DNA of 64,000 nucleotides from Siphonodentalium dalli (Eukaryota > Mollusca > Scaphopoda > Gadilida > Siphonodentaliidae): the NCBI GenBank assembly GCA_032622095.1, contig CP136064.1, forward strand, positions 190,451,794 through 190,515,793. The letters are read 5' to 3'. A program made the translations under genes and the position numbers. Of the stretch, positions 1 through 48,962 are shown one piece after another. Position 1 is the stretch's first letter, and the number at the start of each line of letters is the position of its first letter. The notes under the pieces were generated by a model that ran no database searches, was not told the origin of the DNA, and saw only the letters and a program-made list of their open reading frames with translations.

Positions 1-68
1 TTTTTTCGTGGGAAATCAAAGGATTTATTATTTGTCGACAATAATATGGCCTTGCAATTTTACGGGCC

Positions 69-140
69 GGGGATGTAGCTCAGTGGTAGAGCGTTTGCTT
101 CGCATGTGAAAGGCCCCGGGTTCAATCCCCGGCATCTCCA
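69..140 (+). tRNA. tRNA-Ala-CGC: tRNA-Ala (CGC), unit 1
   Basis: A 72-nt gene without intron or encoded CCA. The acceptor GGGGATG pairs with CATCTCC and includes the G3:U70 wobble pair, the main identity signal for alanyl-tRNA synthetase. The D stem is GCTC/GAGC. The anticodon loop TTCGCAT puts CGC at 34-36, reading Ala codon GCG. The T arm is CCGGG-TTCAATC-CCCGG. Internal Pol III promoters are intact: A box TAGCTCAGTGG and B box GGTTCAATCCC. A TTTT terminator lies 12 nt downstream. This copy has C29T, which only turns a C-G pair of the anticodon stem into U-G. It is first of the three tRNAs in its unit. Confidence 0.93.
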
Positions 141-151
141 AGGAAGGCGAA

Positions 152-155
152 TTTT
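152..155 (+). terminator. Pol III terminator after Ala-CGC (unit 1; same in every unit)
   Basis: A run of four T 12 nt past the tRNA end, in 'gcgaattttg'. It is minimal for Pol III and is conserved in all units at the same distance. Confidence 0.6.
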
Positions 156-194
156 GTTACAATATCTTGCACTATATTTCATCAATGGCGGGTT

Positions 195-912
195 TTGGTA
201 AATTTTTACCCCATTCAATCTCATACAAAATTTATAGCACTCGATCTATTTTATCAGAGGCTGCTTTTTGGTAATGTTTTGCACTATTCAAATCTCGCAC
301 AAAATCCCATGTGTACATTGTCCTGTATTTTTTATAATTTGTTTTATATATCAGTTCGTTTCATCCCATATTTTAGTTGCGGGAGGTAGCGTCTGTTTCA
401 CAGCATCACCCATAGAGACAAGTTGACGTGACAGACATGATGCACCATTCGTTCGCAATATGGACACCCAATAATTTAGTTGGTTGTTTGATTACGACAT
501 GTTCAAGATCGAAAATTGGGATCGTCAAGGTCGGTCTCGGAATATTGTTAAATGGACACAACTCGTTTAAACCTCAAACACTACGTATACCTAATATGGA
601 AGTCGGAACAATGCAGGTCGATAAATACACGAAACACCGTTATACTCTAAAAATAGTCTTATCGAAATCACATTAATTTGACAGCTGTTTTCAATTATTT
701 TTTCTCACAGATTGAGACAAACGCTCTTTATGCGTACCGTATAAGGAATATATAAACAATGAACGCTCGATCTTTATTGTCTCGTGCTGATTAATTTTCC
801 GAAAACAATATGACTTGAATAAGTCACGACATGATATGTATACATTTCATGTATTTCTCGACACATTTTGACCCCGAACCGGGCCTGACGAGGAGGGTAT
901 GTTCTTTGGCCT
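195..912. other. Spacer between Ala-CGC and the first Ala-UGC (unit 1; representative)
   Basis: About 720 bp with no gene I can support. It contains 64-codon and 79-82-codon ORFs, which look accidental: there is no codon-position bias between unit copies and no recognisable domain. Most other units contain TGACGTCA (a perfect CRE-type palindrome) here, for example around 1,933-1,940; units 1 and 4 have TGACGTGA instead. A 'ttattttttctcacag' stretch looks like a splice acceptor but has no exon after it. Confidence 0.6.
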
Positions 913-984
913 GGGGATGTAGCTCAGTGGTAGAGCGTTCGCTTTGCATGTGAAAGGCCCCGGGTTCGATCCCCGGCATCTCCA
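913..984 (+). tRNA. tRNA-Ala-UGC: tRNA-Ala (UGC), second gene of unit 1
   Basis: A 72-nt cloverleaf that matches the neighbouring Ala-CGC except for loop TTTGCAT (anticodon TGC, reading GCA and probably GCG) and T loop TTCGATC. G3:U70 is present and all stems pair. The A box TAGCTCAGTGG and B box GGTTCGATCCC are intact. It is followed by a small GCAC/GTGC inverted repeat and a strong T-rich terminator (TTTCTTTTT). Confidence 0.95.
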
Positions 985-993
985 GCACAGTGC

Positions 994-1002
994 TTTCTTT
1001 TT
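994..1002 (+). terminator. Pol III terminator after first Ala-UGC (unit 1; same in every unit)
   Basis: TTTCTTTTT beginning 10 nt past the tRNA end, the strongest of the three terminators in the unit. Confidence 0.7.
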
Positions 1003-1224
1003 ATTTGTATGTATGAAGTTTTAATTGCACATGCCGCTGTTATGACTGACTGTCGTGATTTCATATACTGGAAAGTCACCATTTGTGAATCGAAACGTTC
1101 CGTCCTATATGCATAGCTATTAAATCACAACAAAGCAAATTTACCACTTCATCTGACTTCTCATCGAATAATAAATAGCTGTCTAATGTAGTCTCCAAAC
1201 TTTGACGGACAAATTCTATCAGTT

Positions 1225-1296
1225 GGGGATGTAGCTCAGTGGTAGAGCGTTCGCTTTGCATGTGAAAGGCCCCGCGTTCGATCCCCGGCATCTCCA
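1225..1296 (+). tRNA. tRNA-Ala-UGC: tRNA-Ala (UGC), third gene of unit 1, T-stem variant
   Basis: Same cloverleaf as the second gene of the unit, but G52C (CCGCG instead of CCGGG) leaves a C-C mismatch with position 62 in the T stem and alters the base just before the B box. Only units 1 and 4 carry this change, suggesting that one was copied from the other. It may fold poorly. TTTT follows at 1,305-1,308. Confidence 0.85.
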
Positions 1297-1304
1297 AGAA
1301 ATAC

Positions 1305-1308
1305 TTTT
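1305..1308 (+). terminator. Pol III terminator after second Ala-UGC (unit 1; same in every unit)
   Basis: A run of four T in 'aatacttttgc' ('aaaacttttgc' in subfamily B), 8 nt past the tRNA end. Confidence 0.6.
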
Positions 1309-1576
1309 GCACGAAAGTTAAAATTCGATTATGACGGTTTTGGTGATATAATAGAAACAGCTTTCCCATCGTTTTTCCGCGTGAAATCACGAAAACGAAA
1401 AAATTACTTTTCTGTATGCTCCGATGATATGATCCGATGCTCCGTGGTATTGTGTTCTTATATTGCAGTGTAATTTCTATCATTTTATATTGAGATTAAC
1501 ATACTTCTTTTTTTCGTGGGAAATCAAAGGATTTATTATTTGTCGACAATAATATGGCCTTGCAATTTTACGGGCC

Positions 1577-1648
1577 GGGGATGTAGCTCAGTGGTAGAGC
1601 GTTCGCTTCGCATGTGAAAGGCCCCGGGTTCAATCCCCGGCATCTCCA
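1577..1648 (+). tRNA. tRNA-Ala-CGC: tRNA-Ala (CGC), unit 2
   Basis: Consensus copy: anticodon stem TTCGC/GTGAA, loop TTCGCAT, G3:U70, both promoter boxes intact. Confidence 0.94.
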
Positions 1649-2420
1649 AGGAAGGCGAATTTTGTTACAATATCTTGCACTATATTTCATCAATGGCGGG
1701 TTTTGGTAAATTTTTACCCCATTCAATCTCATACAAAATGTATAGCACTCGATCTATTTTATCAGAGGCTGCTTTTTGGTAATGTTTTGCACTATTCAAA
1801 TCTCGCACAAAATCCCATGTGTACATTGTCCTGTATTTTTTATAATTTGTTTTATATATCAGTTCGTTTCATCCCATATTTTAGTTGCGGGAGGTAGCGT
1901 CTGTTTCACAGCATCACCCATAGAGACAAGTTGACGTCACAGACATGATGCACCATTCGTTCGCAATATGGACACCCAATAATTTAGTTGGTTGTTTGAT
2001 TACGACATGTTCAAGATCGAAAATTGGGATCGTCAAGGTCGGTATCGGAATATTGTTAAATGGACACAACTCGTTTAAACCTCAAACACTACGTATACCT
2101 AATATGGAAGTCGGAACAATGCAGGTCGATAAATACACGAAACACCGTTATACTCTAAAAATAGTCTTATCGAAATCACATTAATTTGACAGCTGTTTTC
2201 AATTATTTTTTCTCACAGATTGAGACAAACGCTCTTTATGCGTACCGTATAAGGAATATATAAACAATGAACGCTCGATCTTTATTGTCTCGTGCTGATT
2301 AATTTTCCGAAAACAATATGACTTGAATAAGTCACGACATGATATGTATACATTTCATGTATTTCTCGACACATTTTGACCCCGAACCGGGCCTGACGAG
2401 GAGGGTATGTTCTTTGGCCT

Positions 2421-2492
2421 GGGGATGTAGCTCAGTGGTAGAGCGTTCGCTTTGCATGTGAAAGGCCCCGGGTTCGATCCCCGGCATCTCCA
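2421..2492 (+). tRNA. tRNA-Ala-UGC: tRNA-Ala (UGC), unit 2 second gene
   Basis: Consensus UGC copy with all stems paired, strong terminator downstream. Confidence 0.94.
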
Positions 2493-2732
2493 GCACAGTG
2501 CTTTCTTTTTATTTGTATGTATGAAGTTTTAATTGCACATGCCGCTGTTATGACTGACTGTCGTGATTTCATATACTGGAAAGTCACCATTTGTGAATCG
2601 AAACGTTCCGTCCTATATGCATAGCTATTAAATCACAACAAAGCAAATTTACCACTTCATCTGACTTCTCATCGAATAATAAATAGCTGTCTAATGTAGT
2701 CTCCAAACTTTGACGGACAAATTCTATCAGTT

Positions 2733-2804
2733 GGGGATGTAGCTCAGTGGTAGAGCGTTCGCTTTGCATGTGAAAGGCCCCGGGTTCGATCCCCGGCATC
2801 TCCA
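2733..2804 (+). tRNA. tRNA-Ala-UGC: tRNA-Ala (UGC), unit 2 third gene
   Basis: Consensus UGC copy; G52 is intact here, unlike unit 1. Preceded by 'atcagtt'. Confidence 0.94.
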
Positions 2805-3085
2805 AGAAATACTTTTGCACGAAAGTTAAAATTCGATTATGACGGTTTTGGTGATATAATAGAAACAGCTTTCCCCATCGTTTTTCCGCGTGAAATCACG
2901 AAAACGAAAAAATTACTTTTCTGTATGCTCCGATGATATGATCCGATGCTCCGTGGTATTGTGTTCTTATATTGCAGTGTAATTTCTATCATTTTATATT
3001 GAGATTAACATACTTCTTTTTTTCGTGGGAAATCAAAGGATTTATTATTTGTCGACAATAATATGGCCTTGCAATTTTACGGGCC

Positions 3086-3157
3086 GGGGATGTAGCTCAG
3101 TGGTAGAGCGTTCGCTTCGCATGTGAAAGGCCCCGGGTTCAATCCCCGGCATCTCCA
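3086..3157 (+). tRNA. tRNA-Ala-CGC: tRNA-Ala (CGC), unit 3
   Basis: Consensus CGC copy, first gene of a long-type (1,523-bp) unit. Confidence 0.94.
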
Positions 3158-3929
3158 AGGAAGGCGAATTTTGTTACAATATCTTGCACTATATTTCATC
3201 AATGGCGGGTTTTGGTAAATTTTTACCCCATTCAATCTCATACAAAATTTATAGCACTCGATCTATTTTATCAGAGGCTGCTTTTTGGTAATGTTTTGCA
3301 CTATTCAAATCTCGCACAAAATCCCATGTGTACATTGTCCTGTATTTTTTATAATTTGTTTTATATATCAGTTCGTTTCATCCCATATTTTAGTTGCGGG
3401 AGGTAGCGTCTGTTTCACAGCATCACCCATAGAGACAAGTTGACGTCACAGACATGATGCACCATTCGTTCGCAATATGGACACCCAATAATTTAGTTGG
3501 TTGTTTGATTACGACATGTTCAAGATCGAAAATTGGGATCGTCAAGGTCGGTCTCGGAATATTGTTAAATGGACACAACTCGTTTAAACCTCAAACAGTA
3601 CGTATACCTAATATGGAAGTCGGAACAATGCAGGTCGATAAATACACGAAACACCGTTATACTCTAAAAATAGTCTTATCGAAATCACATTAATTTGACA
3701 GCTGTTTTCAATTATTTTTTCTCACAGATTGAGACAAACGCTCTTTATGCGTACCGTATAAGGAATATACAAACAATGAACGCTCGATCTTTATTGTCTC
3801 GTGCTGATTAATTTTCCGAAAACAATATGACTTGAATAAGTCACGACATGATATGTATACATTTCATGTATTTCTCGACACATTTTGACCCCGAACCGGG
3901 CCTGACGAGGAGGGTATGTTCTTTGGCCT

Positions 3930-4001
3930 GGGGATGTAGCTCAGTGGTAGAGCGTTCGCTTTGCATGTGAAAGGCCCCGGGTTCGATCCCCGGCATCTCC
4001 A
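3930..4001 (+). tRNA. tRNA-Ala-UGC: tRNA-Ala (UGC), unit 3 second gene
   Basis: Consensus UGC copy. Confidence 0.94.
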
Positions 4002-4241
4002 GCACAGTGCTTTCTTTTTATTTGTATGTATGAAGTTTTAATTGCACATGCCGCTGTTATGACTGACTGTCGTGATTTCATATACTGGAAAGTCACCATT
4101 TGTGAATCGAAACGTTCCGTCCTATATGCATAGCTATTAAATCACAACAAAGCAAATTTACCACTTCATCTGACTTCTCATCGAATAATAAATAGCTGTC
4201 TAATGTAGTCTCCAAACTTTGACGGACAAATTCTATCATTT

Positions 4242-4313
4242 GGGGATGTAGCTCAGTGGTAGAGCGTTCGCTTTGCATGTGAAAGGCCCCGGGTTCGATC
4301 CCCGGCATCTCCA
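4242..4313 (+). tRNA. tRNA-Ala-UGC: tRNA-Ala (UGC), unit 3 third gene
   Basis: Consensus UGC copy; the upstream base differs ('atcattt'), a marker mostly seen in long-type units. Confidence 0.94.
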
Positions 4314-4608
4314 AGAAATACTTTTGCACGAAAGTTAAAATTCGATTATGACGGTTTTGGTGATATTAATGGATGTAAATAATAGAAACAGCTTTCCCCA
4401 TCGTTTTTCCGCGTGAAATCACGAAAACGAAAAAATTACTTTTCTGTATGCTCCGATGATATGCTCCGATGCTCCGTGGTATTGTGTCCTTATATTGCAG
4501 TGTAATTTCTATCATTTTATATTGAGATTAACATACTTCTTTTTTTCGTGGGAAATCAAAGGATTTATTATTTGTCGACAATAATATGGCCTTGCAATTT
4601 TACGGGCC

Positions 4609-4680
4609 GGGGATGTAGCTCAGTGGTAGAGCGTTCGCTTCGCATGTGAAAGGCCCCGGGTTCAATCCCCGGCATCTCCA
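4609..4680 (+). tRNA. tRNA-Ala-CGC: tRNA-Ala (CGC), unit 4
   Basis: Consensus CGC copy. The following spacer shares TGACGTGA with unit 1. Confidence 0.94.
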
Positions 4681-5452
4681 AGGAAGGCGAATTTTGTTAC
4701 AATATCTTGCACTATATTTCATCAATGGCAGGTTTTGGTAAATTTTTACCCCATTCAATCTCATACAAAATTTATAGCACTCGATCTATTTTATCAGAGG
4801 CTGCTTTTTGGTAATGTTTTGCACTATTCAAATCTCGCACAAAATCCCATGTGTACATTGTCCTGTATTTTTTATAATTTGTTTTATATATCAGTTCGTT
4901 TCATCCCATATTTTAGTTGCGGGAGGTAGCGTCTGTTTCACAGCATCACCCATAGAGACAAGTTGACGTGACAGACATGATGCACCATTCGTTCGCAATA
5001 TGGACACCCAATAATTTAGTTGGTTGTTTGATTACGACATGTTCAAGATCGAAAATTGGGATCGTCAAGGTCGGTCTCGGAATATTGTTAAATGGACACA
5101 ACTCGTTTAAACCTCAAACACTACGTATACCTAATATGGAAGTCGGAACAATGCAGGTCGATAAATACACGAAACACCGTTATACTCTAAAAATAGTCTT
5201 ATCGAAATCACATTAATTTGACAGCTGTTTTCAATTATTTTTTCTCACAGATTGAGACAAACGCTCTTTATGCGTACCGTATAAGGAATATATAAACAAT
5301 GAACGCTCGATCTTTATTGTCTCGTGCTGATTAATTTTCCGAAAACAATATGACTTGAATAAGTCACGACATGATATGTATACATTTCATGTATTTCTCG
5401 ACACATTTTGACCCCGAACCGGGCCTGACGAGGAGGGTATGTTCTTTGGCCT

Positions 5453-5524
5453 GGGGATGTAGCTCAGTGGTAGAGCGTTCGCTTTGCATGTGAAAGGCCC
5501 CGGGTTCGATCCCCGGCATCTCCA
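5453..5524 (+). tRNA. tRNA-Ala-UGC: tRNA-Ala (UGC), unit 4 second gene
   Basis: Consensus UGC copy. Confidence 0.94.
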
Positions 5525-5764
5525 GCACAGTGCTTTCTTTTTATTTGTATGTATGAAGTTTTAATTGCACATGCCGCTGTTATGACTGACTGTCGTGATT
5601 TCATATACTGGAAAGTCACCATTTGTGAATCGAAACGTTCCGTCCTATATGCATAGCTATTAAATCACAACAAAGCAAATTTACCACTTCATCTGACTTC
5701 TCATCGAATAATAAATAGCTGTCTAATGTAGTCTCCAAACTTTGACGGACAAATTCTATCAGTT

Positions 5765-5836
5765 GGGGATGTAGCTCAGTGGTAGAGCGTTCGCTTTGCA
5801 TGTGAAAGGCCCCGCGTTCGATCCCCGGCATCTCCA
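5765..5836 (+). tRNA. tRNA-Ala-UGC: tRNA-Ala (UGC), unit 4 third gene, T-stem variant
   Basis: Carries the same G52C T-stem mismatch as the third gene of unit 1; the only other copy to do so. Confidence 0.85.
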
Positions 5837-6117
5837 AGAAATACTTTTGCACGAAAGTTAAAATTCGATTATGACGGTTTTGGTGATATAATAGAAACAG
5901 CTTTCCCCATCGTTTTTCCGCGTGAAATCACGAAAACGAAAAAATTACTTTTCTGTATGCTCCGATGATATGATCCGATGCTCCGTGGTATTGTGTTCTT
6001 ATATTGCAGTGTAATTTCTATCATTTTATATTGAGATTAACATACTTCTTTTTTTCGTGGGAAATCAAAGGATTTATTATTTGTCGACAATAATATGGCC
6101 TTGCAATTTTACGGGCC

Positions 6118-6189
6118 GGGGATGTAGCTCAGTGGTAGAGCGTTCGCTTCGCATGTGAAAGGCCCCGGGTTCAATCCCCGGCATCTCCA
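6118..6189 (+). tRNA. tRNA-Ala-CGC: tRNA-Ala (CGC), unit 5
   Basis: Consensus CGC copy in a short-type unit. Confidence 0.94.
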
Positions 6190-6961
6190 AGGAAGGCGAA
6201 TTTTGTTACAATATCTTGCACTATATTTCATCAATGGCGGGTTTTGGTAAATTTTTACCCCATTCAATCTCATACAAAATTTATAGCACTCGATCTATTT
6301 TATCAGAGGCTGCTTTTTGGTAATGTTTTGCACTATTCAAATCTCGCACAAAATCCCATGTGTACATTGTCCTGTATTTTTTATAATTTGTTTTATATAT
6401 CAGTTCGTTTCATCCCATATTTTAGTTGCGGGAGGTAGCGTCTGTTTCACAGCATCACCCATAGAGACAAGTTGACGTCACAGACATGATGCACCATTCG
6501 TTCGCAATATGGACACCCAATAATTTAGTTGGTTGTTTGATTACGACATGTTCAAGATCGAAAATTGGGATCGTCAAGGTCGGTCTCGGAATATTGTTAA
6601 ATGGACACAACTCGTTTAAACCTCAAACACTACGTATACCTAATATGGAAGTCGGAACAATGCAGGTCGATAAATACACGAAACACCGTTATACTCTAAA
6701 AATAGTCTTATCGAAATCACATTAATTTGACAGCTGTTTTCAATTATTTTTTCTCACAGATTGAGACAAACGCTCTTTATGCGTACCGTATAAGGAATAT
6801 ATAAACAATGAACGCTCGATCTTTATTGTCTCGTGCTGATTAATTTTCCGAAAACAATATGACTTGAATAAGTCACGACATGATATGTATACATTTCATG
6901 TATTTCTCGACACATTTTGACCCCGAACCGGGCCTGACGAGGAGGGTATGTTCTTTGGCCT

Positions 6962-7033
6962 GGGGATGTAGCTCAGTGGTAGAGCGTTCGCTTTGCATGT
7001 GAAAGGCCCCGGGTTCGATCCCCGGCATCTCCA
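6962..7033 (+). tRNA. tRNA-Ala-UGC: tRNA-Ala (UGC), unit 5 second gene
   Basis: Consensus UGC copy. Confidence 0.94.
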
Positions 7034-7273
7034 GCACAGTGCTTTCTTTTTATTTGTATGTATGAAGTTTTAATTGCACATGCCGCTGTTATGACTGACT
7101 GTCGTGATTTCATATACTGGAAAGTCACCATTTGTGAATCGAAACGTTCCGTCCTATATGCATAGCTATTAAATCACAACAAAGCAAATTTACCACTTCA
7201 TCTGACTTCTCATCGAATAATAAATAGCTGTCTAATGTAGTCTCCAAACTTTGACGGACAAATTCTATCAGTT

Positions 7274-7345
7274 GGGGATGTAGCTCAGTGGTAGAGCGTT
7301 CGCTTTGCATGTGAAAGGCCCCGGGTTCGATCCCCGGCATCTCCA
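7274..7345 (+). tRNA. tRNA-Ala-UGC: tRNA-Ala (UGC), unit 5 third gene
   Basis: Consensus UGC copy. Confidence 0.94.
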
Positions 7346-7626
7346 AGAAATACTTTTGCACGAAAGTTAAAATTCGATTATGACGGTTTTGGTGATATAA
7401 TAGAAACAGCTTTCCCCATCGTTTTTCCGCGTGAAATCACGAAAACGAAAAAATTACTTTTCTGTATGCTCCGATGATATGATCCGATGCTCCGTGGTAT
7501 TGTGTTCTTATATTGCAGTGTAATTTCTATCATTTTATATTGAGATTAACATACTTCTTTTTTTCGTGGGAAATCAAAGGATTTATTATTTGTCGACAAT
7601 AATATGGCCTTGCAATTTTACGGGCC

Positions 7627-7698
7627 GGGGATGTAGCTCAGTGGTAGAGCGTTCGCTTCGCATGTGAAAGGCCCCGGGTTCAATCCCCGGCATCTCCA
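7627..7698 (+). tRNA. tRNA-Ala-CGC: tRNA-Ala (CGC), unit 6
   Basis: Consensus CGC copy. Units 5 and 6 appear identical by eye. Confidence 0.94.
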
Positions 7699-8470
7699 AG
7701 GAAGGCGAATTTTGTTACAATATCTTGCACTATATTTCATCAATGGCGGGTTTTGGTAAATTTTTACCCCATTCAATCTCATACAAAATTTATAGCACTC
7801 GATCTATTTTATCAGAGGCTGCTTTTTGGTAATGTTTTGCACTATTCAAATCTCGCACAAAATCCCATGTGTACATTGTCCTGTATTTTTTATAATTTGT
7901 TTTATATATCAGTTCGTTTCATCCCATATTTTAGTTGCGGGAGGTAGCGTCTGTTTCACAGCATCACCCATAGAGACAAGTTGACGTCACAGACATGATG
8001 CACCATTCGTTCGCAATATGGACACCCAATAATTTAGTTGGTTGTTTGATTACGACATGTTCAAGATCGAAAATTGGGATCGTCAAGGTCGGTCTCGGAA
8101 TATTGTTAAATGGACACAACTCGTTTAAACCTCAAACACTACGTATACCTAATATGGAAGTCGGAACAATGCAGGTCGATAAATACACGAAACACCGTTA
8201 TACTCTAAAAATAGTCTTATCGAAATCACATTAATTTGACAGCTGTTTTCAATTATTTTTTCTCACAGATTGAGACAAACGCTCTTTATGCGTACCGTAT
8301 AAGGAATATATAAACAATGAACGCTCGATCTTTATTGTCTCGTGCTGATTAATTTTCCGAAAACAATATGACTTGAATAAGTCACGACATGATATGTATA
8401 CATTTCATGTATTTCTCGACACATTTTGACCCCGAACCGGGCCTGACGAGGAGGGTATGTTCTTTGGCCT

Positions 8471-8542
8471 GGGGATGTAGCTCAGTGGTAGAGCGTTCGC
8501 TTTGCATGTGAAAGGCCCCGGGTTCGATCCCCGGCATCTCCA
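8471..8542 (+). tRNA. tRNA-Ala-UGC: tRNA-Ala (UGC), unit 6 second gene
   Basis: Consensus UGC copy. Confidence 0.94.
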
Positions 8543-8782
8543 GCACAGTGCTTTCTTTTTATTTGTATGTATGAAGTTTTAATTGCACATGCCGCTGTTA
8601 TGACTGACTGTCGTGATTTCATATACTGGAAAGTCACCATTTGTGAATCGAAACGTTCCGTCCTATATGCATAGCTATTAAATCACAACAAAGCAAATTT
8701 ACCACTTCATCTGACTTCTCATCGAATAATAAATAGCTGTCTAATGTAGTCTCCAAACTTTGACGGACAAATTCTATCAGTT

Positions 8783-8854
8783 GGGGATGTAGCTCAGTGG
8801 TAGAGCGTTCGCTTTGCATGTGAAAGGCCCCGGGTTCGATCCCCGGCATCTCCA
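8783..8854 (+). tRNA. tRNA-Ala-UGC: tRNA-Ala (UGC), unit 6 third gene
   Basis: Consensus UGC copy. Confidence 0.94.
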
Positions 8855-9135
8855 AGAAATACTTTTGCACGAAAGTTAAAATTCGATTATGACGGTTTTG
8901 GTGATATAATAGAAACAGCTTTCCCCATCGTTTTTCCGCGTGAAATCACGAAAACGAAAAAATTACTTTTCTGTATGCTCCGATGATATGATCCGATGCT
9001 CCGTGGTATTGTGTTCTTATATTGCAGTGTAATTTCTATCATTTTATATTGAGATTAACATACTTCTTTTTTTCGTGGGAAATCAAAGGATTTATTATTT
9101 GTCGACAATAATATGGCCTTGCAATTTTACGGGCC

Positions 9136-9207
9136 GGGGATGTAGCTCAGTGGTAGAGCGTTCGCTTCGCATGTGAAAGGCCCCGGGTTCAATCCCCGGC
9201 ATCTCCA
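9136..9207 (+). tRNA. tRNA-Ala-CGC: tRNA-Ala (CGC), unit 7
   Basis: Consensus CGC copy. The spacer after it has a local rearrangement ('ttcgttattatccc' for 'ttcgtttcatccc') that is unique to this unit. Confidence 0.94.
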
Positions 9208-9980
9208 AGGAAGGCGAATTTTGTTACAATATCTTGCACTATATTTCATCAATGGCGGGTTTTGGTAAATTTTTACCCCATTCAATCTCATACAAAATTT
9301 ATAGCACTCGATCTATTTTATCAGAGGCTGCTTTTTGGTAATGTTTTGCACTATTCAAATCTCGCACAAAATCCCATGTGTACATTGTCCTGTATTTTTT
9401 ATAATTTGTTTTATATATCAGTTCGTTATTATCCCATATTTTAGTTGCGTGAGGTAGCGTCTGTTTCACAGCATCACCCATAGAGACAAGTTGACGTCAC
9501 AGACATGATGCACCATTCGTTCGCAATATGGACACCCAATAATTTAGTTGGTTGTTTGATTACGACATGTTCAAGATCGAAAATTGGGATCGTCAAGGTC
9601 GGTCTCGGAATATTGTTAAATGGACACAACTCGTTTAAACCTCAAACACTACGTATACCTAATATGGAAGTCGGAACAATGCAGGTCGATAAATACACGA
9701 AACACCGTTATACTCTAAAAATAGTCTTATCGAAATCACATTAATTTGACAGCTGTTTTCAATTATTTTTTCTCACAGATTGAGACAAACGCTCTTTATG
9801 CGTACCGTATAAGGAATATATAAACAATGAACGCTCGATCTTTATTGTCTCGTGCTGATTAATTTTCCGAAAACAATATGACTTGAATAAGTCACGACAT
9901 GATATGTATACATTTCATGTATTTCTCGACACATTTTGACCCCGAACCGGGCCTGACGAGGAGGGTATGTTCTTTGGCCT

Positions 9981-37084: not shown

Positions 37085-37140
37085 AGAAAAACTTTTGCAC
37101 GAAAGTTAAAATTCGATCATGACGTTTTTGGTGATATTAA

Positions 37141-39005: not shown

Positions 39006-39061
39006 AGAAAAACTTTTGCACGAAAGTTAAAATTCGATCATGACGGTTTTGGTGATATTAA

Positions 39062-39700: not shown

Positions 39701-39767
39701 GGGGATGTAGATCAGTGGTAGAGCGTTCGCATGTGAAAGGCCCCGGGTTTAATCCCCGACATCTCCA
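39701..39767 (+). pseudogene. tRNA-Ala (CGC) pseudogene with 5-nt anticodon-arm deletion, unit 26
   Basis: In addition to C11A, C56T and G65A, one of two adjacent TTCGC repeats (5' anticodon stem and loop) is gone, leaving 67 nt and no normal anticodon arm. Slippage between the direct repeats explains it. Confidence 0.9.
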
Positions 39768-40538
39768 AGGAAGGCGAATTTTGTTACAATATCTTGCACT
39801 ATATTTCATCAATGGCGGATTTTGGTAAATTTTTGCCCCATTCAATCTCATACAAAATTTCTAGCACTCGATCTATTTTATCAGAGGCTGCTTTTGGTAA
39901 TGTTTTGCACTATTCAAATCTCGCACAAAATCCCATGTGTACATTGTCCTGTATTTTTTATAATTTGTTTTATATATCAGTTCGTTTCATCCCATATTTT
40001 AGTTGCGAGAGGTAGCGTCTGTTTCATAGCATCACCCATAGAGACAATTTGACGTCACAGACATGATGCACCAGTCGTTCGCAATATGGACACCCAATAA
40101 TTTAGTTGGTTGTTTGATTACAGCATGTTCAAGATCGGAATTGGGATCATCAATGTCGGTCTCGGAATATTGTTAAATGGACACAACTCGTTTAAACCTC
40201 AAACAGTACGTATACCTAATATGGAAGTCGGAACAATGCAGGTCGATAAATACACGAAACACCGTTATACTCTAAAAATAATCTTACCGAAATCACATTA
40301 ATTTGACAGCTGTTTTCATTTATTTTTTCTCACAGATTGAGACAAACGCTCTTTATTCGTACCGTATAAGGAATATATAAACAATAAACGCTCGATCTTT
40401 ATTGTCTCGTGCTGATTAATTTTCCGAAAACAATATGACTTGAATAAGTCACGACATGATATGTATACATTTCATGTATTTCTCGACACATTTTGACCCC
40501 CGAACCGGGCCTGACGAGGAGGGTATATTATTTGGCCT

Positions 40539-40610
40539 GGGGATGTAGCTCAGTGGTAGAGCGTTCGCTTTGCATGTGAAAGGCCCCGGGTTCGATCCCC
40601 GGCATCTCCA
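40539..40610 (+). tRNA. tRNA-Ala-UGC: tRNA-Ala (UGC), unit 26 second gene
   Basis: Consensus cloverleaf. Confidence 0.93.
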
Positions 40611-40852
40611 GAACAGTGCTTTCTTTTTATTTGTATGTATCAAGTTTTAATTGCACATGCCGCTGTTATGACTGACTCTCGTGATTTCATATATACTGGA
40701 AAGTCACGATTTGTGAATCGAAACTTTCCGTCCTATATGCATAGCTATTAAATCACAACAAAGCAAATTTACCACTTCATCTGACTTCTCATCGAATAAT
40801 AAATAGCTGTCTAATGTAGTGTCCAAACATTGACGGACAAATTCTATCAGTT

Positions 40853-40924
40853 GGGGATGTAGCTCAGTGGTAGAGCGTTCGCTTTGCATGTGAAAGGCCC
40901 CGGGTTCGATCCCCGGCATCTCCA
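40853..40924 (+). tRNA. tRNA-Ala-UGC: tRNA-Ala (UGC), unit 26 third gene
   Basis: Consensus cloverleaf. Confidence 0.93.
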
Positions 40925-40980
40925 AGAAAAACTTTTGCACGAAAGTTAAAATTCGATCATGACGGTTTTGGTGATATTAA

Positions 40981-41390
40981 GGGGAGGTCAAGTGAAAAAT
41001 TTTGAATAGGGATATTTCCATGGAAATCTCCGGAGCAACAGTTACAGAGTTGCATATACTTCTGAGTGGGACTTGATGTGGTATTGGAAACAACATGTAT
41101 TTATCTGGCGGTTCAGCTTGGTAAATTATAAAATTTTGCAACAGATATATTTTTGAGAATTTTTTTCGGGAATTACATCACTTGACCTACATTTGAAAAA
41201 TCAAAATAAAATTCAAAAATAAATACACCAACATTATAACGGAACAAGTTCAAAGCGGACAAGCCAGATAAATACCTGTTGTTTCCAATACCACATCAAT
41301 TCACACATAGAATTATGTGGAACTCTGTAACCTTTGCTCCGCAGATTTGCATGGAAATCCTCATTCAATATTGTTCACTTGACATCCCCC
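40981..41390. mobile_element. TTAA inverted-repeat element, copy 6
   Basis: Flanked by TTAA at 40,977-40,980 and 41,391-41,394; higher-order duplicate of copy 2. Confidence 0.87.
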
Positions 41391-41620
41391 TTAATGGATG
41401 TAAATAATAGAAACAGCTTTCCCCATCGTTTTTCCACGTGAAATCACGAAAACGAAAAAATTACTTTTCTGTATGCTCCGATGCTCCGTGCTATTGTGTC
41501 CTTATATTGCAGTGTAATTTCTATCATTTTATATTGAGATAAACATACTTCTTTTATTCGTGGGAAATCAAAGGATTTATTATTTGTCAACAATAATATG
41601 GCCTTGCAATTTTACGGGCC

Positions 41621-41692
41621 GGGGATGTAGATCAGTGGTAGAGCGCTCGCTTCGCACGTGAAAGGCCCCGGGTTTAATCCCCGACATCTCCA
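41621..41692 (+). pseudogene. tRNA-Ala (CGC) pseudogene, unit 27
   Basis: Duplicate of the unit 23 pseudogene, with the same five changes. Confidence 0.87.
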
Positions 41693-42461
41693 AGGAAGGC
41701 GAATTTTGTTACAATATCTTGCACTATATTTCATCAATGGCGGATTTTGGTAAATTTTTGCCCCATTCAATCTCATACAAAATTTCTAGCACTCGATCTA
41801 TTTTATCAGAGGCTGCTTTTTGGTAATGTTTTGCACTATTCAAATCTCGCACAAAATCCCATGTGTACATTGTCCTGTATTTTTTATAATTTGTTTTATA
41901 TATCAGTTCGTTTCATCCCATATTTTAGTTGCGAGAGGTAGCGTCTGTTTCATAGCATCACCCATAGAGACAATTTGACGTCACAGACATGATGCACCAG
42001 TCGTTCGCAATATGGACACCCAATAATTTTGTTGGTTGTTTGATTACAGCATGTTCAAGATCGGAATTGGGATCATCAATGTCGGTCTCGGAATATTGTT
42101 AAATGGACACAACTCGTTTAAACCTCAAACAGTACGTATACCTAATATGGAAGTCGGAACAATGCAGGTCGATAAATACACGAAACACCGTTATACTCTA
42201 AAAATAATCTTACCCAAATCACATTAATTTGACAGCTGTTTTCATTTATTTTTTCTCACAGATTGAGACAAACGCTCTTTATTCGTACCGTATAAGGAAT
42301 ATATAAACAATAAACGCTCGATCTTTATTGTCTCGTGCTGATTAATTTTCCGAAAACAATATGACTTGAATAAGTCACGACATATGTATACATTTCATGT
42401 ATTTCTCGACACATTTTGACCCCCGAACCGGGCCTGACGAGGAGGGTATATTATTTGGCCT

Positions 42462-42533
42462 GGGGATGTAGCTCAGTGGTAGATCGTTCGCTTTGCACGT
42501 GAAAGGCCCCGGGTTCGATCCCCGGCATCTCCA
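42462..42533 (+). tRNA. tRNA-Ala-UGC: tRNA-Ala (UGC), unit 27 second gene, D-stem variant
   Basis: Duplicate of the unit 23 copy, with G24T and T38C. Confidence 0.75.
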
Positions 42534-42775
42534 GAACAGTGCTTTCTTTTTATGTGTATGTATCAAGTTTTAATTGCACATGCCGCTGTTATGACTGACT
42601 CTCGTGATTTCATATATACTGGAAAGTCACGATTTGTGAATCGAAACTTTCCGTCCTATATGCATAGCTATTAAATCACAACAAAGCAAATTTACCACTT
42701 CATCTGACTTCTCATCGAATAATAAATAGCTGTCTAATGTAGTGTCCAAACATTGACGGACAAATGCTATCAGTT

Positions 42776-42847
42776 GGGGATGTAGCTCAGTGGTAGAGCG
42801 TTCGCTTTGCATGTGAAAGGCCCCGGGTTCGATCCCTGGCATCTCCA
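42776..42847 (+). tRNA. tRNA-Ala-UGC: tRNA-Ala (UGC), unit 27 third gene
   Basis: Carries C63T (G-U in the T stem), like its unit 23 counterpart. Confidence 0.88.
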
Positions 42848-42903
42848 AGAAAAACTTTTGCACGAAAGTTAAAATTCGATCATGACGGTTTTGGTGATAT
42901 TAA

Positions 42904-43311
42904 GGGGGAGGTCAAGTGAAAATTTTTGAATAGGGATTTCCATGGAAATCTCCGGAGCAACAGTTACAGAGTTGCATATACTTCTGAGTGGGACTTGAAT
43001 TGGTATTGGAAACAACAGGTATTTATCTGGCGGTTCAGCTTGGTAAATTATAAAATTTTGCAACAGATATATTTTTGAGAATTTTTTTCGGGAATTACAT
43101 CACTTGACCTACATTTGAAAAATCAAAATAAAAATCAAAAATAAATACACCAACATTATAACGGAACAAGTTAAAGCGGACAAGCCAGATAAATACCTGT
43201 TGTTTCCAATACCACATCAATTCACACATAGAATTATGTGGAACTCTGTAACCTTTGCTCCGCAGATTTGCATGGAAATCCTCATTCAATATTGTTCACT
43301 TGACATCCCCC
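42904..43311. mobile_element. TTAA inverted-repeat element, copy 7
   Basis: Flanked by TTAA at 42,900-42,903 and 43,312-43,315; duplicate of copy 3. Confidence 0.87.
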
Positions 43312-43541
43312 TTAATGGATGTAAATAATAGAAACAGCTTTCCCCATCGTTTTTCCACGTGAAATCACGAAAACGAAAAAATTACTTTTCTGTATGCTCC
43401 GATGCTCCGTGGTATTGTGTCCTTATATTGCAGTGTAATTTCTATCATTTTATATTGAGATAAACATACTTCTTTTATTCGTGGGAAATCAAAGGATTTA
43501 TTATTTGTCAACAATAATATGGCCTTGCAATTTTACGGGCC

Positions 43542-43613
43542 GGGGATGTAGATCAGTGGTAGAGCGCTCGCTTCGCACGTGAAAGGCCCCGGGTTTAATC
43601 CCCGACATCTCCA
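43542..43613 (+). pseudogene. tRNA-Ala (CGC) pseudogene, unit 28
   Basis: Duplicate of the unit 24 pseudogene. Confidence 0.87.
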
Positions 43614-44382
43614 AGGAAGGCGAATTTTGTTACAATATCTTGCACTATATTTCATCAATGGCGGATTTTGGTAAATTTTTGCCCCATTCAATCTCATACA
43701 AAATTTCTAGCACTCGATCTATTTTATCAGAGGCTGCTTTTTGGTAATGTTTTGCACTATTCAAATCTCGCACAAAATCCCATGTGTACATTGTCCTGTA
43801 TTTTTTATAATTTGTTTTATATATCAGTTCGTTTCATCCCATATTTTAGTTGCGAGAGGTAGCGTCTGTTTCATAGCATCACCCATAGAGACAATTTGAC
43901 GTCACAGACATGATGCACCAGTCGTTCGCAATATGGACACCCAATAATTTTGTTGGTTGTTTGATTACAGCATGTTCAAGATCGGAATTGGGATCATCAA
44001 TGTCGGTCTCGGAATATTGTTAAATGGACACAACTCGTTTAAACCTCAAACAGTACGTATACCTAATATGGAAGTCGGAACAATGCAGGTCGATAAATAC
44101 ACGAAACACCGTTATACTCTAAAAATAATCTTACCGAAATCACATTAATTTGACAGCTGTTTTCATTTATTTTTTCTCACAGATTGAGACAAACGCTCTG
44201 TATTCGTACCGTATAAGGAATATATAAACAATAAACGCTCGATCTTTATTGTCTCGTGCTGATTAATTTTCCGAAAACAATATGACTTGAATAAGTCACG
44301 ACATATGTATACATTTCATGTATTTCTCGACACATTTTGACCCCCGAACCGGGCCTGACGAGGAGGGTATATTATTTGGCCT

Positions 44383-44454
44383 GGGGATGTAGCTCAGTGG
44401 TAGAGCGTTCGCTTTGCATGTGAAAGGCCCCGGGTTCGATCCCCGGCATCTCCA
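44383..44454 (+). tRNA. tRNA-Ala-UGC: tRNA-Ala (UGC), unit 28, recombinant single UGC gene
   Basis: Duplicate of the merged gene of unit 24, with second-gene upstream flank and third-gene downstream flank. Confidence 0.93.
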
Positions 44455-44510
44455 AGAAAAACTTTTGCACGAAAGTTAAAATTCGATCATGACGTTTTTG
44501 GTGATATTAA

Positions 44511-44919
44511 GGGGGAGGTCAAGTGAAAAATTTTGAATAGGGATTTCCATGGAAATCTCCGGAGCAACAGTTACAGAGTTGCATATACTTCTGAGTGGGA
44601 CTTGATGTGGTATTGGAAACAACAGGTATTTATCTGGCGGTTCAGCTTGGTAAATTATAAAATTTTGCAACAGATATATTTTTGAGAATTTTTTTCGGGA
44701 ATTACATCACTTGACCTACATTTGAAAAATCAAAATAAAATTCAAAAATAAATACACCAACATTATAACGGAACAAGTTCAAAGCGGACAAGCCAGATAA
44801 ATACCTGTTGTTTCCAATACCACATCAATTCACACATAGAATTATGTGGAACTCTGTAACTTTTGCTCCGCAGATTTGCATGGAAATCCTCATTCAATAT
44901 TGTTCACTTGACATCCCCC
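44511..44919. mobile_element. TTAA inverted-repeat element, copy 8
   Basis: Flanked by TTAA at 44,507-44,510 and 44,920-44,923; duplicate of copy 4. Confidence 0.87.
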
Positions 44920-45149
44920 TTAATGGATGTAAATAATAGAAACAGCTTTCCCCATCGTTTTTCCACGTGAAATCACGAAAACGAAAAAATTACATTTCTG
45001 TATGCTCCGATGCTCCGTGGTATTGTGTCCTTATATTGCAGTGTAATTTCTATCATTTTATATTGAGATAAACATACTTCTTTTATTCGTGGGAAATCAA
45101 AGGATTTATTATTTGTCAACAATAATATGGCCTTGCAATTTTACGGGCC

Positions 45150-45221
45150 GGGGATGTAGATCAGTGGTAGAGCGTTCGCTTCGCATGTGAAATGCCCCGG
45201 GTTTAATCCCCGACATCTCCA
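45150..45221 (+). pseudogene. tRNA-Ala (CGC) pseudogene, unit 29
   Basis: Duplicate of the unit 25 pseudogene, including the variable-region change. Confidence 0.85.
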
Positions 45222-45989
45222 AGGAAGGCGAATTTTGTTACAATATCTTGCACTATATTTCATCAATGGCGGATTTTGGTAAATTTTTGCCCCATTCAAT
45301 CTCATACAAAATTTCTAGCACTCGATCTATTTTATCAGAGGCTGCTTTTGGTAATGTTTTGCACTATTCAAATCTCGCACAAAATCCCATGTGTACATTG
45401 TCCTGTATTTTTTATAATTTGTTTTATATATCAGTTCGTTTCATCCCATATTTTAGTTGCGAGAGGTAGCGTCTGTTTCATAGCATCACCCATAGAGACA
45501 ATTTGACGTCACAGACATGATGCACCAGTCGTTCGCAATATGGACACCCAATAATTTAGTTGGTTGTTTGATTACAGCATGTTCAAGATCGGAATTGGGA
45601 TCATCAATGTCGGTCTCGGAATATTGTTAAATGGACACAACTCGTTTAAACCTCAAACAGTACGTATACCTTATATGGAAGTCGGAACAATGCAGGTCGA
45701 TAAATACACGAAACACCGTTATACTCTAAAAATAATCTTACCCAAATCACATTAATTTGACAGCTGTTTTCATTTATTTTTTCTCACAGATTGAGACAAA
45801 CGCTCTTTATTCGTACCGTATAAGGAATATATGAACAATAAACGCTCGATCTTTATTGTCTCGTGCTGATTAATTTTCCGAAAACAATATGACTTGAATA
45901 AGTCACGACATATGTATACATTTCATGTATTTCTCGACACATTTTGACCCCCGAACCGGGCCTGACGAGGAGGGTATATTATTTGGCCT

Positions 45990-46061
45990 GGGGATGTAGC
46001 TCAGTGGTAGAGCGTTCGCTTTGCATGTGAAAGGCCCCGGGTTCGATCCCCGGCATCTCCA
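45990..46061 (+). tRNA. tRNA-Ala-UGC: tRNA-Ala (UGC), unit 29 second gene
   Basis: Consensus cloverleaf. Confidence 0.93.
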
Positions 46062-46303
46062 GAACAGTGCTTTCTTTTTATTTGTATGTATCAAGTTTTA
46101 ATTGCACATGCCGCTGTTATGACTGACTCTCGTGATTTCATATATACTGGAAAGTCACGATTTGTGAATCGAAACTTTCCGTCCTATATGCATAGCTATT
46201 AAATCACAACAAAGCAAATTTACCACTTCATCTGACTTCTCATCGAATAATAAATAGCTGTCTAATGTAGTGTCCAAACATTGACGGACAAATTCTATCA
46301 GTT

Positions 46304-46375
46304 GGGGATGTAGCTCAGTGGTAGAGCGTTCGCTTTGCATGTGAAAGGCCCCGGGTTCGATCCCCGGCATCTCCA
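46304..46375 (+). tRNA. tRNA-Ala-UGC: tRNA-Ala (UGC), unit 29 third gene
   Basis: Consensus cloverleaf. Confidence 0.93.
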
Positions 46376-46431
46376 AGAAAAACTTTTGCACGAAAGTTAA
46401 AATTCGATCATGACGGTTTTGGTGATATTAA

Positions 46432-46840
46432 GGGGGAGGTCAAGTGAAAAATTTTGAATAGGGATTTCCATGGAAATCTCCGGAGCAACAGTTACAGAGT
46501 TGCATATACTTCTGAGTGGGACTTGATGTGGTATTGGAAACAACAGGTATTTATCTGGCGGTTCAGCTTGGTAAATTATAAAATTTTGCAACAGATATAT
46601 TTTTGAGAATTTTTTTCGGGAATTACATCACTTGACCTACATTTGAAAAATCAAAATAAAATTCAAAAATAAATACACCAACATTATAACGGAACAAGTT
46701 CAAAGCGGACAAGCCAGATAAATACCTGTTGTTTCCAATACCACATCAATTCACACATAGAATTATGTGGAACTCTGTAACCTTTGCTCCGCAGATTTGC
46801 ATGGAAATCCTCATTCAATATTGTTCACTTGACATCCCCC
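46432..46840. mobile_element. TTAA inverted-repeat element, copy 9 (last)
   Basis: Flanked by TTAA at 46,428-46,431 and 46,841-46,844. No copy follows in unit 30. Confidence 0.87.
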
Positions 46841-47070
46841 TTAATGGATGTAAATAATAGAAACAGCTTTCCCCATCGTTTTTCCACGTGAAATCACGAA
46901 AACGAAAAAATTACTTTCCTGTATGCTCCGATGCTCCGTGGTATTGTGTCCTTATATTGCAGTGTAATTTCTATCATTTTATATTGAGATAAACATACTT
47001 CTTTTATTCGTGGGAAATCAAAGGATTTATTATTTGTCAACAATAATATGGCCTTGCAATTTTACGGGCC

Positions 47071-47137
47071 GGGGATGTAGATCAGTGGTAGAGCGTTCGC
47101 ATGTGAAAGGCCCCGGGTTTAATCCCCGACATCTCCA
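47071..47137 (+). pseudogene. tRNA-Ala (CGC) pseudogene with 5-nt deletion, unit 30
   Basis: Same 67-nt deleted form as unit 26. It places the right end of the higher-order duplication past this gene. Confidence 0.9.
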
Positions 47138-47897
47138 AGGAAGGCGAATTTTGTTACAATATCTTGCACTATATTTCATCAATGGCGGATTTTGGTAAAT
47201 TTTTGCCCCATTCAATCTCATACAAAATTTCTAGCACTCGATCTATTTTATCAGAGGCTGCTTTTGGTAATGTTTTGCACTATTCAAATCTCGCACAAAA
47301 TCCCATGTGTACATTGTCCTGTATTTTTTATAATTTGTTTTATATATCAGTTCGTTTCATCCCATATTTTAGTTGCGAGAGGTAGCGTCTGTTTCATAGC
47401 ATCACCCATAGAGACAATTTGACGTCACAGACATGATGCACCAGTCGTTCGCAATATGGACACCCAATAATTTAGTTGGTTGTTTGATTACAGCATGTTC
47501 AAGATCGGAATTGGGATCATCAATGTCGGTCTCGGAATATTGTTAAATGGACACAACTCGTTTAAACCTCAAACAGTACGTATACCTAATATGGAAGTCG
47601 GAACAATGCAGGTCGATAAATACACGAAACACCGTTATACTCTAAAAATAATCTTACCCAAATCACATTAATTTGACAGCTGTTTTCATTTATTTTTTCT
47701 CACAGATTGAGACAAACGCTCTTTATTCGTACCGTATAAGGAATATATAAACAATAAACGCTCGATCTTTATTGTCTCGTGCTGATTAATTTTCCGAAAA
47801 CATGACTTGAATAAGTCACGACATATGTATACATTTCATGTATTTCTCGACACATTTTGCGAACCGGGCCTGACGAGGAGGGTATATTATTTGGCCT

Positions 47898-47969
47898 GGG
47901 GATGTAGCTCAGTGGTAGAGCGTTCGCTTTGCATGTGAAAGGCCCCGGGTTCGATCCCCGGCATCTCCA
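47898..47969 (+). tRNA. tRNA-Ala-UGC: tRNA-Ala (UGC), unit 30 second gene
   Basis: Consensus cloverleaf. Two short deletions lie just upstream ('gaaaacatgact', 'acattttgcgaacc'). Confidence 0.93.
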
Positions 47970-48211
47970 GAACAGTGCTTTCTTTTTATTTGTATGTATC
48001 AAGTTTTAATTGCACATGCCGCTGTTATGACTGACTCTCGTGATTTCATATATACTGGAAAGTCACGATTTGTGAATCGAAACTTTCCGTCCTATATGCA
48101 TAGCTATTAAATCACAACAAAGCAAATTTACCACTTCATCTGACTTCTCATCGAATAATAAATAGCTGTCTAATGTAGTGTCCAAACATTGACGGACAAA
48201 TTCTATCAGTT

Positions 48212-48283
48212 GGGGATGTAGCTCAGTGGTAGAGCGTTCGCTTTGCATGTGAAAGGCCCCGGGTTCGATCCCCGGCATCTCCA
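48212..48283 (+). tRNA. tRNA-Ala-UGC: tRNA-Ala (UGC), unit 30 third gene (last UGC gene)
   Basis: Consensus cloverleaf. The downstream site reads 'gatattgatggatg': TTAA is mutated to TTGA and the inverted-repeat element is absent. Confidence 0.93.
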
Positions 48284-48557
48284 AGAAAAACTTTTGCACG
48301 AAAGTTAAAATTCGATCATGACGGTTTTGGTGATATTGATGGATGTAAATAATAGAAACAGCTTTCCCCATCGTTTTTCCACGTGAAATCACGAAAACGA
48401 AAAAATTACTTTTCTGTATGCTCCGTGGTATTGTGTCCGTATATTGCAGTGTAATTTCTATCATTTTATATTGAGATAAACATACTTTTTTTATTCGTGG
48501 GAAATCAAAGAATTTATTATTTGTCAACAATAATATGGCCTTGCAATTTTACGGGCC

Positions 48558-48629
48558 GGGGATGTAGCTCAGTGGTAGAGCGTTCGCTTCGCATGTGAAA
48601 GGCCACGGGTTCAATCCCCGGCATCTTCA
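48558..48629 (+). tRNA. tRNA-Ala-CGC: tRNA-Ala (CGC), unit 31, edge copy with two stem changes
   Basis: It lacks the subfamily B mutations (D stem GCTC, T loop TTCAATC, both promoter boxes intact). It has C49A (T-stem mismatch with G65) and C71T (G2-U71 wobble; 3' end CATCTTC). Its flanks are the most diverged in the array. It may still be expressed; otherwise it is a slowly decaying edge copy. Confidence 0.65.
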
Positions 48630-48962
48630 AGGAAGGCGAATTTTGTTACAATATCTTGCACTATATTTCATCAATGGCGGATTTTGGTAAATTTATGCAC
48701 CATTCAATCTCAAATAAAATTTCTAGCACTCGATCTATTTTATCAGAGGCTGCTTTTGGTAATGTTTTGCACCATTAAAATCACGCACAAAATCCAATGT
48801 GTACATTGTTCTATATTTTTTATAATTCGTTTTATATATCATTTCTTTTCATCCCATATTTTAGTTGCGAGAGGTAGCGTCTGTTTCATAGCATCACCCA
48901 TAGAGACAAGTTGGTGTCACAGACATGACGCGCCCTGTCGTTCGCAATATGGACTAATTTAG

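Follow-up and report, generated by a model that had tools for sequence, protein, structure and literature searches.

A 422-kb tandem array of tRNA-Ala(UGC/CGC) genes in the scaphopod Siphonodentalium dalli and its probable role as a multicopy locus of the ribosomal DNA type

The stretch of DNA discussed here, called the window, comprises 64,000 nucleotides of the scaphopod mollusc Siphonodentalium dalli (assembly GCA_032622095.1, contig CP136064.1, here C4; C4:190,451,794-190,515,793 in a genome of 2,226,750,531 bases and nine contigs). Its left part is the right-hand end of a tandem array of alanine tRNA genes that extends from C4:190,078,763 to C4:190,500,761, i.e., over 421,999 bp or nearly nine times the part in the window. 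The whole array is estimated to comprise about 280 units (422 kb at ~1.52 kb) and contains roughly 800 near-identical tRNA-Ala genes. We consider it rather probable, from sequence comparison, that it is a multicopy locus resembling ribosomal DNA (rDNA), that it is the main and probably the only source of tRNA-Ala(UGC/CGC), and that its copies are kept uniform by unequal exchange. Tandem tRNA arrays as such are already known; unusual here are the size, the content of a single amino acid, which the initial annotation had rightly stressed, and the near-exclusive use.

The left end had been said not to be reached in the window. It lies, indeed, 373 kb farther to the left, and beyond it the sequence is unlike the unit, with the exception of one 66-bp relic 0.7 kb outside the edge, which is 80% like the spacer between the two UGC genes of a unit (UGC1 and UGC2). 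At both edges the array reads into non-array flank without Ns. The 200 kb left of the window were read; inside the 169 kb of 190,082,794-190,251,793, spacer and anticodon-arm matches are listed. In C4:190,251,794-190,500,761, the longer stretch, ARAGORN finds 478 tRNA genes, all on the forward strand: 320 UGC, 157 CGC and 1 CGG. The isoacceptor AGC is absent from the part of the array that was read.

In the window, Rfam (RF00005, gathering score 29) recognises 89 tRNA loci between positions 69 and 48,629, all on the forward strand, with 41.5-70.4 bits. The predicted 89 alanine loci of one orientation in about 49 kb were thus found, and the covariance model, whose rejection of these genes had been named as a refutation, places 89/89 above its gathering score. 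ARAGORN counts 87, every one Ala and forward; its two misses are the CGC copies at 39,701 and 47,071, in which 5 nt of the anticodon arm are gone. The anticodons are 58 UGC and 31 CGC, including the two with the shortened arm. Homogeneous tDNA clusters have been defined by a common amino acid and distances below 1000 nt (PMC2888827). In the window, the gap between successive tRNA genes is at most 786 nt (89 genes), and the amino acid is Ala in 89/89 genes, as in 477/478 of the longer stretch.

There are 30 complete unit intervals in the window. The arrangement of three genes per unit, as originally proposed, holds for 28 of them (CGC, UGC, UGC); u24 and u28 have two genes, a CGC and one hybrid UGC gene. 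The unit lengths are 1508-1537 bp for u1-u20, 1920-1925 or 1608 bp for u21-u29 and 1487 bp for u30. Sequence resembling the unit ends at about 48,968, in line with the right edge claimed before. The array is thereby laid out as follows (window coordinates):

1..48968, + strand: right-hand 49 kb of the tRNA-Ala array (Rfam, ARAGORN, unit comparison)
1..30342, + strand: A-type units u1-u20; pairwise mismatches 0-10 per ~1.5 kb
6058..7566, + strand: typical A-type unit of 1509 bp, with CGC at 6118-6189, UGC1 at 6962-7033 and UGC2 at 7274-7345
30343..32265, + strand: transitional unit u21, with a CGC gene of 68.8 bits; a TTAA-flanked insertion appears first here
32266..48497, + strand: B-type units u22-u30, with the insertion lacking in u30; neither A-box nor B-box consensus is left in any of their nine CGC genes
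48558..48968, + strand: last, partial unit and right edge of the array; CGC gene at 48558-48629, 58.7 bits

Among the UGC genes of the window, 52/58 are identical across 72 nt, and one sequence is common to 16/31 CGC genes; of its 72 nt, 2 differ from UGC, and one of these belongs to the anticodon. In the longer stretch the main sequence is seen in 279/320 UGC and 121/157 CGC genes. The A-box consensus is present in 58/58 UGC and 22/31 CGC genes of the window, the B-box consensus in 56/58 and 22/31, respectively. Both boxes are thus kept in 78/89 copies; 9/31 CGC genes have neither and 2/58 UGC genes have a changed B box. TTTT follows within 40 nt downstream of 89/89 genes, and G3:U70, the alanine identity pair, is present in 88/89. 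By covariance score (89/89), boxes, terminator and identity pair, the window shows the sequence features of functional cytosolic tRNA-Ala. The longer stretch behaves similarly, with both boxes in 460/478 genes and TTTT within 40 nt in 461/478. Some of the loci, of course, are not intact genes, as 11/89 window copies lack the full box consensus. A single gene of the array, at C4:190,377,493, has an Ala tRNA body with the proline anticodon CGG; were this gene expressed, alanine could be placed at CCG codons.

Well-kept boxes would also be expected of a chromatin boundary or architectural element built from TFIIIC sites, with tRNA output being secondary. The 78/89 and 460/478 copies that keep both boxes fit such a role, and the human 1q23.3 tRNA repeat has been proposed as a boundary (PMC4041453). 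Anticodon, identity pair and terminators, however, are kept too in most copies, hundreds of copies seem far beyond the need, and a CTCF-like core has no match within the window. We regard this explanation as highly improbable.

No further RNA family reaches its gathering score across the window (Rfam); a permissive Rfam scan of 30,300-34,300 yielded tRNA only, plus a sub-threshold tmRNA match that overlaps tRNA genes. Other genes in the spacer were considered and dismissed: the longest ATG-to-stop frames of one A and one B unit measure 67-79 aa, and none is convincing; to judge by eye, the start of one frame, of 71 aa, falls on the strand opposite a tRNA T arm. At a score of at least 50, the window's part of the array has just tandem repeats of 13 or 14 nt in about two copies. 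With a spacer GC content of 0.35-0.36, the ~1.5-kb unit is AT-rich. When one unit is compared with itself, the three genes share at most about 5 flanking bases; the only further matches are a 59-bp internal spacer repeat (76%) and short inverted ones.

How exclusive is the array? Whole-genome tRNA counts were made with exact patterns, and placements refer to the first 100 matches listed in contig order. The pattern for the anticodon arm of Ala-YGC (UGC or CGC) has 797 matches genome-wide, 796 forward and 1 reverse, the latter at C4:12,652,730, inside an Ala-AGC array. Among the matches listed, 99 lie at C4:190,079,151-190,129,490, and there is none on C1-C3, nor on C4 before the array save the reverse one. 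In the part of the array that was read, 468 were counted. The remaining 229 compare with 229.9 expected for the intervening 122.3 kb at the density of the read part, and nearly all of the 796 forward matches therefore appear to be accounted for by the array alone. That a search of this kind is able to see dispersed genes is evident from Lys and Glu: among the matches listed, Lys copies without listed neighbours occur at 11 places (C1, C2, C3, C5, C6, C8), and 3 Glu matches without listed neighbours at 2 places on C1. The scattered Lys matches are of the Lys-CUU type, and in occurring without listed neighbours they are unlike Ala-YGC. In a search with the spacer, the best 40 of 523 candidates and 3 partial ones all lie inside the Ala array. 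In the collections viral_contigs and genome_contigs the tRNA patterns have no exact match, nor has one spacer word in viral_contigs, as expected for a eukaryotic nuclear array. An origin from short interspersed elements (SINE) or long terminal repeat (LTR) elements of the Helenus/Ajax type was rejected, for the gene flanks are unlike each other and the scored spacer matches are all within the array.

The mode of evolution can be read from the array body. Left of the part with insertions, 149 CGC-to-CGC intervals were available; the 145 that measure 1480-1560 bp entered the alignment, and the other 4, which are longer, were left out. The mean divergence of the 145 units is 0.47%; it rises with distance, being 0.30% for adjacent units and 0.56% for those separated by 61-150 units. 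Gene variants that were traced mostly form local clusters spanning tens of kb, and 37/1035 informative site pairs fail the four-gamete test. Together with hybrid genes and a recent 7.37-kb duplication near the right end (see below), these observations argue for concerted evolution by local exchange. We read the array body as the site of unequal exchange with homogenisation, and the right edge as the place where older, more diverged units would be left. A regular higher-order repeat of ~45 kb, suspected from four matches left of the window, was discarded, as there is no clear dip of divergence at that lag.

The same data bear on the assembly, which might have inflated a much smaller array. The 145 units contain 73 identical pairs, and the two blocks of the 7.37-kb duplication differ merely by 5 positions and 3 short indels, which is what inflation might produce. 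Yet there are 105 distinct haplotypes among the 145 units, variants are locally clustered, divergence grows with distance, both edges run into non-array flank without Ns, and the other tRNA arrays of this genome would need inflating as well. Inflation on such a scale is quite improbable.

More serious is the possibility of a mostly silent amplification. In this case the tRNA would be supplied by a few units or by diverged genes dispersed elsewhere, and the rest would be neutral expansion in closed chromatin. Several observations that fit it weigh at the same time against our view of the array as the main source. Across the 145 units, segregating sites number 11/144 in the UGC genes and 106/1307 in the spacer, which is no lower variability for UGC (Fisher p=1.0); the CGC gene is even more variable (16/72; p=0.0003). 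A silent array, too, would be expected to show this absence of excess UGC conservation and this faster change of CGC. The sole hint of longer constraint comes from the consensus sequences of A and B units, which differ at 0/144 UGC sites and 35/1275 spacer sites (two-sided single-test p=0.043), a weak sign. Moreover, 229/797 Ala-YGC matches were not placed singly, an exact pattern passes over diverged dispersed copies, the spacer search scored 40 of its 523 candidates, and the copy number is based on an assembly with the identical pairs just mentioned. The CGC genes of u22-u30 have decayed together: 9/9 carry the same three changes (gene positions 11, 55 and 64) and fail both box patterns. The Arabidopsis SYY array of Ser/Tyr/Tyr units, finally, is silenced in most tissues (PMC12308677).

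What speaks against wholesale silence is that the exact pattern reveals no dispersed Ala-YGC genes, either at the listed places or from what the total implies; some of the array, at the least, must therefore be functional. The spacer is, furthermore, not depleted of CpG: the observed/expected ratio is 1.32 and 1.07, versus 0.71 in the right flank, with a GpC control of 0.93-1.00. This is compatible with an unmethylated germ line, although the argument is indirect, and speaks weakly against heavy germline CpG methylation. On balance, a mostly silent array is unlikely, if worth keeping in mind. Neutral amplification, one of the roles proposed initially, agrees with the lack of copy-level constraint; it falls short as a full account if an essential tRNA has no source other than this array.

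Purifying selection on individual copies was considered and rejected, as the hint in the window (the A/B consensus difference given above; segregating sites 4/144 versus 71/1280, p=0.23) was gone with 145 units (p=1.0). As UGC genes and spacer do not differ in variability, exchange suffices to explain the identity of these genes within the array, without selection on each single copy. In the spacer, the sites nearest to a gene (within 20 nt) vary at 0.150, versus 0.050-0.091 farther away (C4:190,252,038 to ~190,482,000; the trend in the window is weak). Such raised variation beside genes is expected if transcription raises mutation, and it is not relied on here.

The view of a multicopy, rDNA-like source can be put as a sequence of steps. 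An ancestral unit with two UGC genes and a CGC copy differing by 2/72 nt would have been amplified head to tail to 422 kb. tRNA genes are transcribed by RNA polymerase III, and the cell requires tRNA-Ala(UGC); the polymerase presumably transcribes some or most of the copies. The array would then be the main and probably the only source of tRNA-Ala(UGC/CGC), with probable surplus copies. Selection may act on the total dose and not on single copies; recombination would keep the copies alike, and single ones, above all CGC, would be free to decay. The array would, finally, be one case of a wider habit of this genome to keep tRNA genes in tandem arrays.

This habit is evident from the other families that were probed with exact patterns. 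Ala-AGC has 225 matches genome-wide; the 100 listed are all on C4, at 7.79-7.86 Mb (mostly at 688-bp spacing) and 12.63-12.65 Mb, and Pro-UGG genes accompany them in 3/4 loci read. A Met pattern, which we take to be of the initiator type, has 710 matches, among those listed at C2:217.64-217.81 Mb and mostly at ~1028-bp spacing; Gly-GCC alternates with it in both loci read. Thr has 509, on one strand (among those listed at C5:144.28-144.33 Mb), and Glu 1065, 97 of the 100 listed being at C1:42.24-42.54 Mb, mostly at ~903-bp spacing. All listed ones of the 235 Asp matches fall on C8, where 4 lie at 109.1 Mb and the others begin at 186.0 Mb; the listed ones of 227 Lys matches are all on C8 apart from the 11 scattered places. 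Mixed units also occur, with Arg/Lys/Val/Trp/Asp on C8 and Arg/Met/Gly/Leu at C4:252.6 Mb. For His, the single trial pattern used gave no match genome-wide. The selenocysteine tRNA (tRNA-Sec) has at least 14 matches over the family cut-off, with the best 53 of 106,728 candidates scored: nine stand in a row at C3:91,435,809-91,450,537 (L046, L047; 1.6 and 2.2 kb spacing), and five more are on C3 at 209.35 (three), 210.16 and 221.24 Mb. Three tabulated bivalves have 1 or 2 tRNA-Sec genes each (PMC9679248). At C8:163,268,352-163,411,082 there is an array with ~1.7 kb spacing whose genes are just under the tRNA-Sec cut-off (46.2 versus 47 bits); they are perhaps tRNAs with a long variable arm, such as Ser or Leu. 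In a general tRNA search, 63 of 112,462 candidates were scored.

Among the matches listed, runs at unit spacing were seen in every one of the few probed families that had matches, and Lys and Glu occur outside arrays as well. In its tandem units of one to several tRNA genes the genome resembles Entamoeba. High CpG is not a rule for tRNA arrays: the ratio is 1.06-1.37 in L039, L040, L044, L046 and L047 and 0.85-0.95 in Thr and one C8 sample, so that 2/7 samples of other arrays do not fit.

The spread of the habit bears on a further explanation, a dosage adaptation to an alanine-rich secreted protein. It had been suggested by analogy to silk, and the array is indeed devoted to Ala and nothing more; tRNA-Ala is raised in silk glands (PMC12308677). 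The counts for initiator-type Met (710), Glu (1065) and Thr (509) are comparable, however, and there is the row of tRNA-Sec genes. AGC, the isoacceptor decoding GCU/GCC, is absent from the part of the array that was read, and its 225 matches stand against 797. An alanine-specific meaning is hardly credible, because unrelated tRNAs, including initiator-type Met and tRNA-Sec, have been multiplied too; arrays exist equally for initiator-type Met/Gly, Glu, Thr and Asp/Lys/Val/Trp/Arg. For the same reason, tRNA gene counts are not a simple measure of amino-acid demand.

Whether the nuclear tRNA families as a whole are kept like rRNA genes, each largely gathered in one long array or a few, with these as its main or even sole source, is a proposition for which we see about equal reason to believe and to doubt. 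If it holds, translation would depend on the dosage, the exchange and the chromatin state of arrays. If the Ala array is the sole source, the supply of this tRNA is rDNA-like: copy number may vary between individuals, chromatin can regulate the family at one place, and unequal exchange, not selection per gene, keeps the tRNA uniform. An old question would then be open to direct test: by what means the members of a multigene tRNA family remain identical, and what number of them is in use.

The right end of the array carries the structural variants (window coordinates):

31683..32099: insertion resembling a miniature inverted-repeat transposable element (MITE), with inverted-repeat arms of ~143 nt (86% complementary), between TTAA copies
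34251..48340, + strand: four-unit higher-order repeat, period 7370 bp
37013..37084, + strand: hybrid UGC gene of u24, flanked by UGC1 sequence on the 5' side and by UGC2 sequence on the 3' side
39701..39767, + strand: defective CGC copy with 5 nt of the anticodon arm deleted; likewise 47071-47137
44383..44454, + strand: hybrid UGC gene of u28, the same as in u24

The TTAA-ended insertion, presumably piggyBac-like, is present in nine copies in u21-u29; the others end at 34024, 35945, 37553, 39474, 41394, 43315, 44923 and 46844. Some A-type units show the empty, uninterrupted TTAA site. The copies have been spread by amplification of the unit. The hybrid UGC genes, to judge from the sequence, would result from a deletion of ~313 bp through exchange between UGC1 and UGC2. 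The two 7370-bp blocks are 5 substitutions and 3 short indels apart over ~6.7 kb.

In the right flank, a 31-bp tandem repeat (49712-50430, 23.5 copies) starts ~0.7 kb beyond the edge of the array. A fragment of a ubiquitin-specific protease lies at 63247-63621 on the reverse strand (Pfam UCH at E 1.4e-11, with USP4/USP15 as the closest structures solved). It is overlapped by a 103-bp tandem repeat at 63454-63718, which duplicates part of the coding sequence.

As to known systems, the literature consulted, mainly of the non-subscription type, contained no description that we recognised of such an array in a mollusc. Among bivalves, Mercenaria mercenaria has 465 tRNA-Ala and 791 tRNA-Thr genes (PMC9679248). 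In S. dalli, Ala and Thr form units of a single amino acid. The Helenus/Ajax LTR elements, which contain tRNA-like sequences, can inflate tRNA counts and occur in some bivalves (PMC10886601). Those are dispersed, whereas here the units stand head to tail and the gene flanks are unrelated beyond a few bases.

Clusters of at least fifty tRNA genes are reported from Nematostella and teleosts, neighbouring pairs are nearly all parallel in Danio and Xenopus, and drosophilids, Monosiga and Tetrahymena have many homogeneous pairs (PMC2888827). In Nematostella, Xenopus and zebrafish, however, neighbours mostly stand for different amino acids, and a homogeneous array of comparable length was not met in the available part of that survey. 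The human 1q23.3 variable-number tandem repeat consists of a GC-rich unit of 7.3 kb with genes for several amino acids and a CTCF site, in 9-43 units per allele; its authors describe homogeneous tandem repeats of tRNA genes as uncommon except in Entamoeba (PMC4041453). Like the present array it is large, homogeneous (its units are ~98% alike) and CpG-rich. The unit in S. dalli, in contrast, is AT-rich, measures ~1.5 kb, encodes Ala only and shows no CTCF-like core in the window.

The Arabidopsis SYY array comprises 54 clustered tRNA-Tyr genes besides dispersed ones and is methylated and mostly silent (PMC12308677). It shares with the Ala array the tandem unit of three genes, of which two specify one amino acid, the growth by tandem duplication, and a major sequence accompanied by variants and tRNA-like pseudogenes. 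It differs in that here the genes are for Ala only, number about 800 and have no dispersed copies by exact pattern. In Entamoeba histolytica, almost all tRNA genes are found in tandem arrays with units of up to five genes, some of them for a single amino acid (PMC2652664). The function of those arrays is described there as unresolved, and inactive surplus copies are considered. Tandem tRNA units, including such for one amino acid, are the common feature. In E. histolytica and E. dispar, however, short tandem repeats separate the genes; nothing comparable is seen here, and here a single array of 422 kb resides in a genome of 2.23 Gb.

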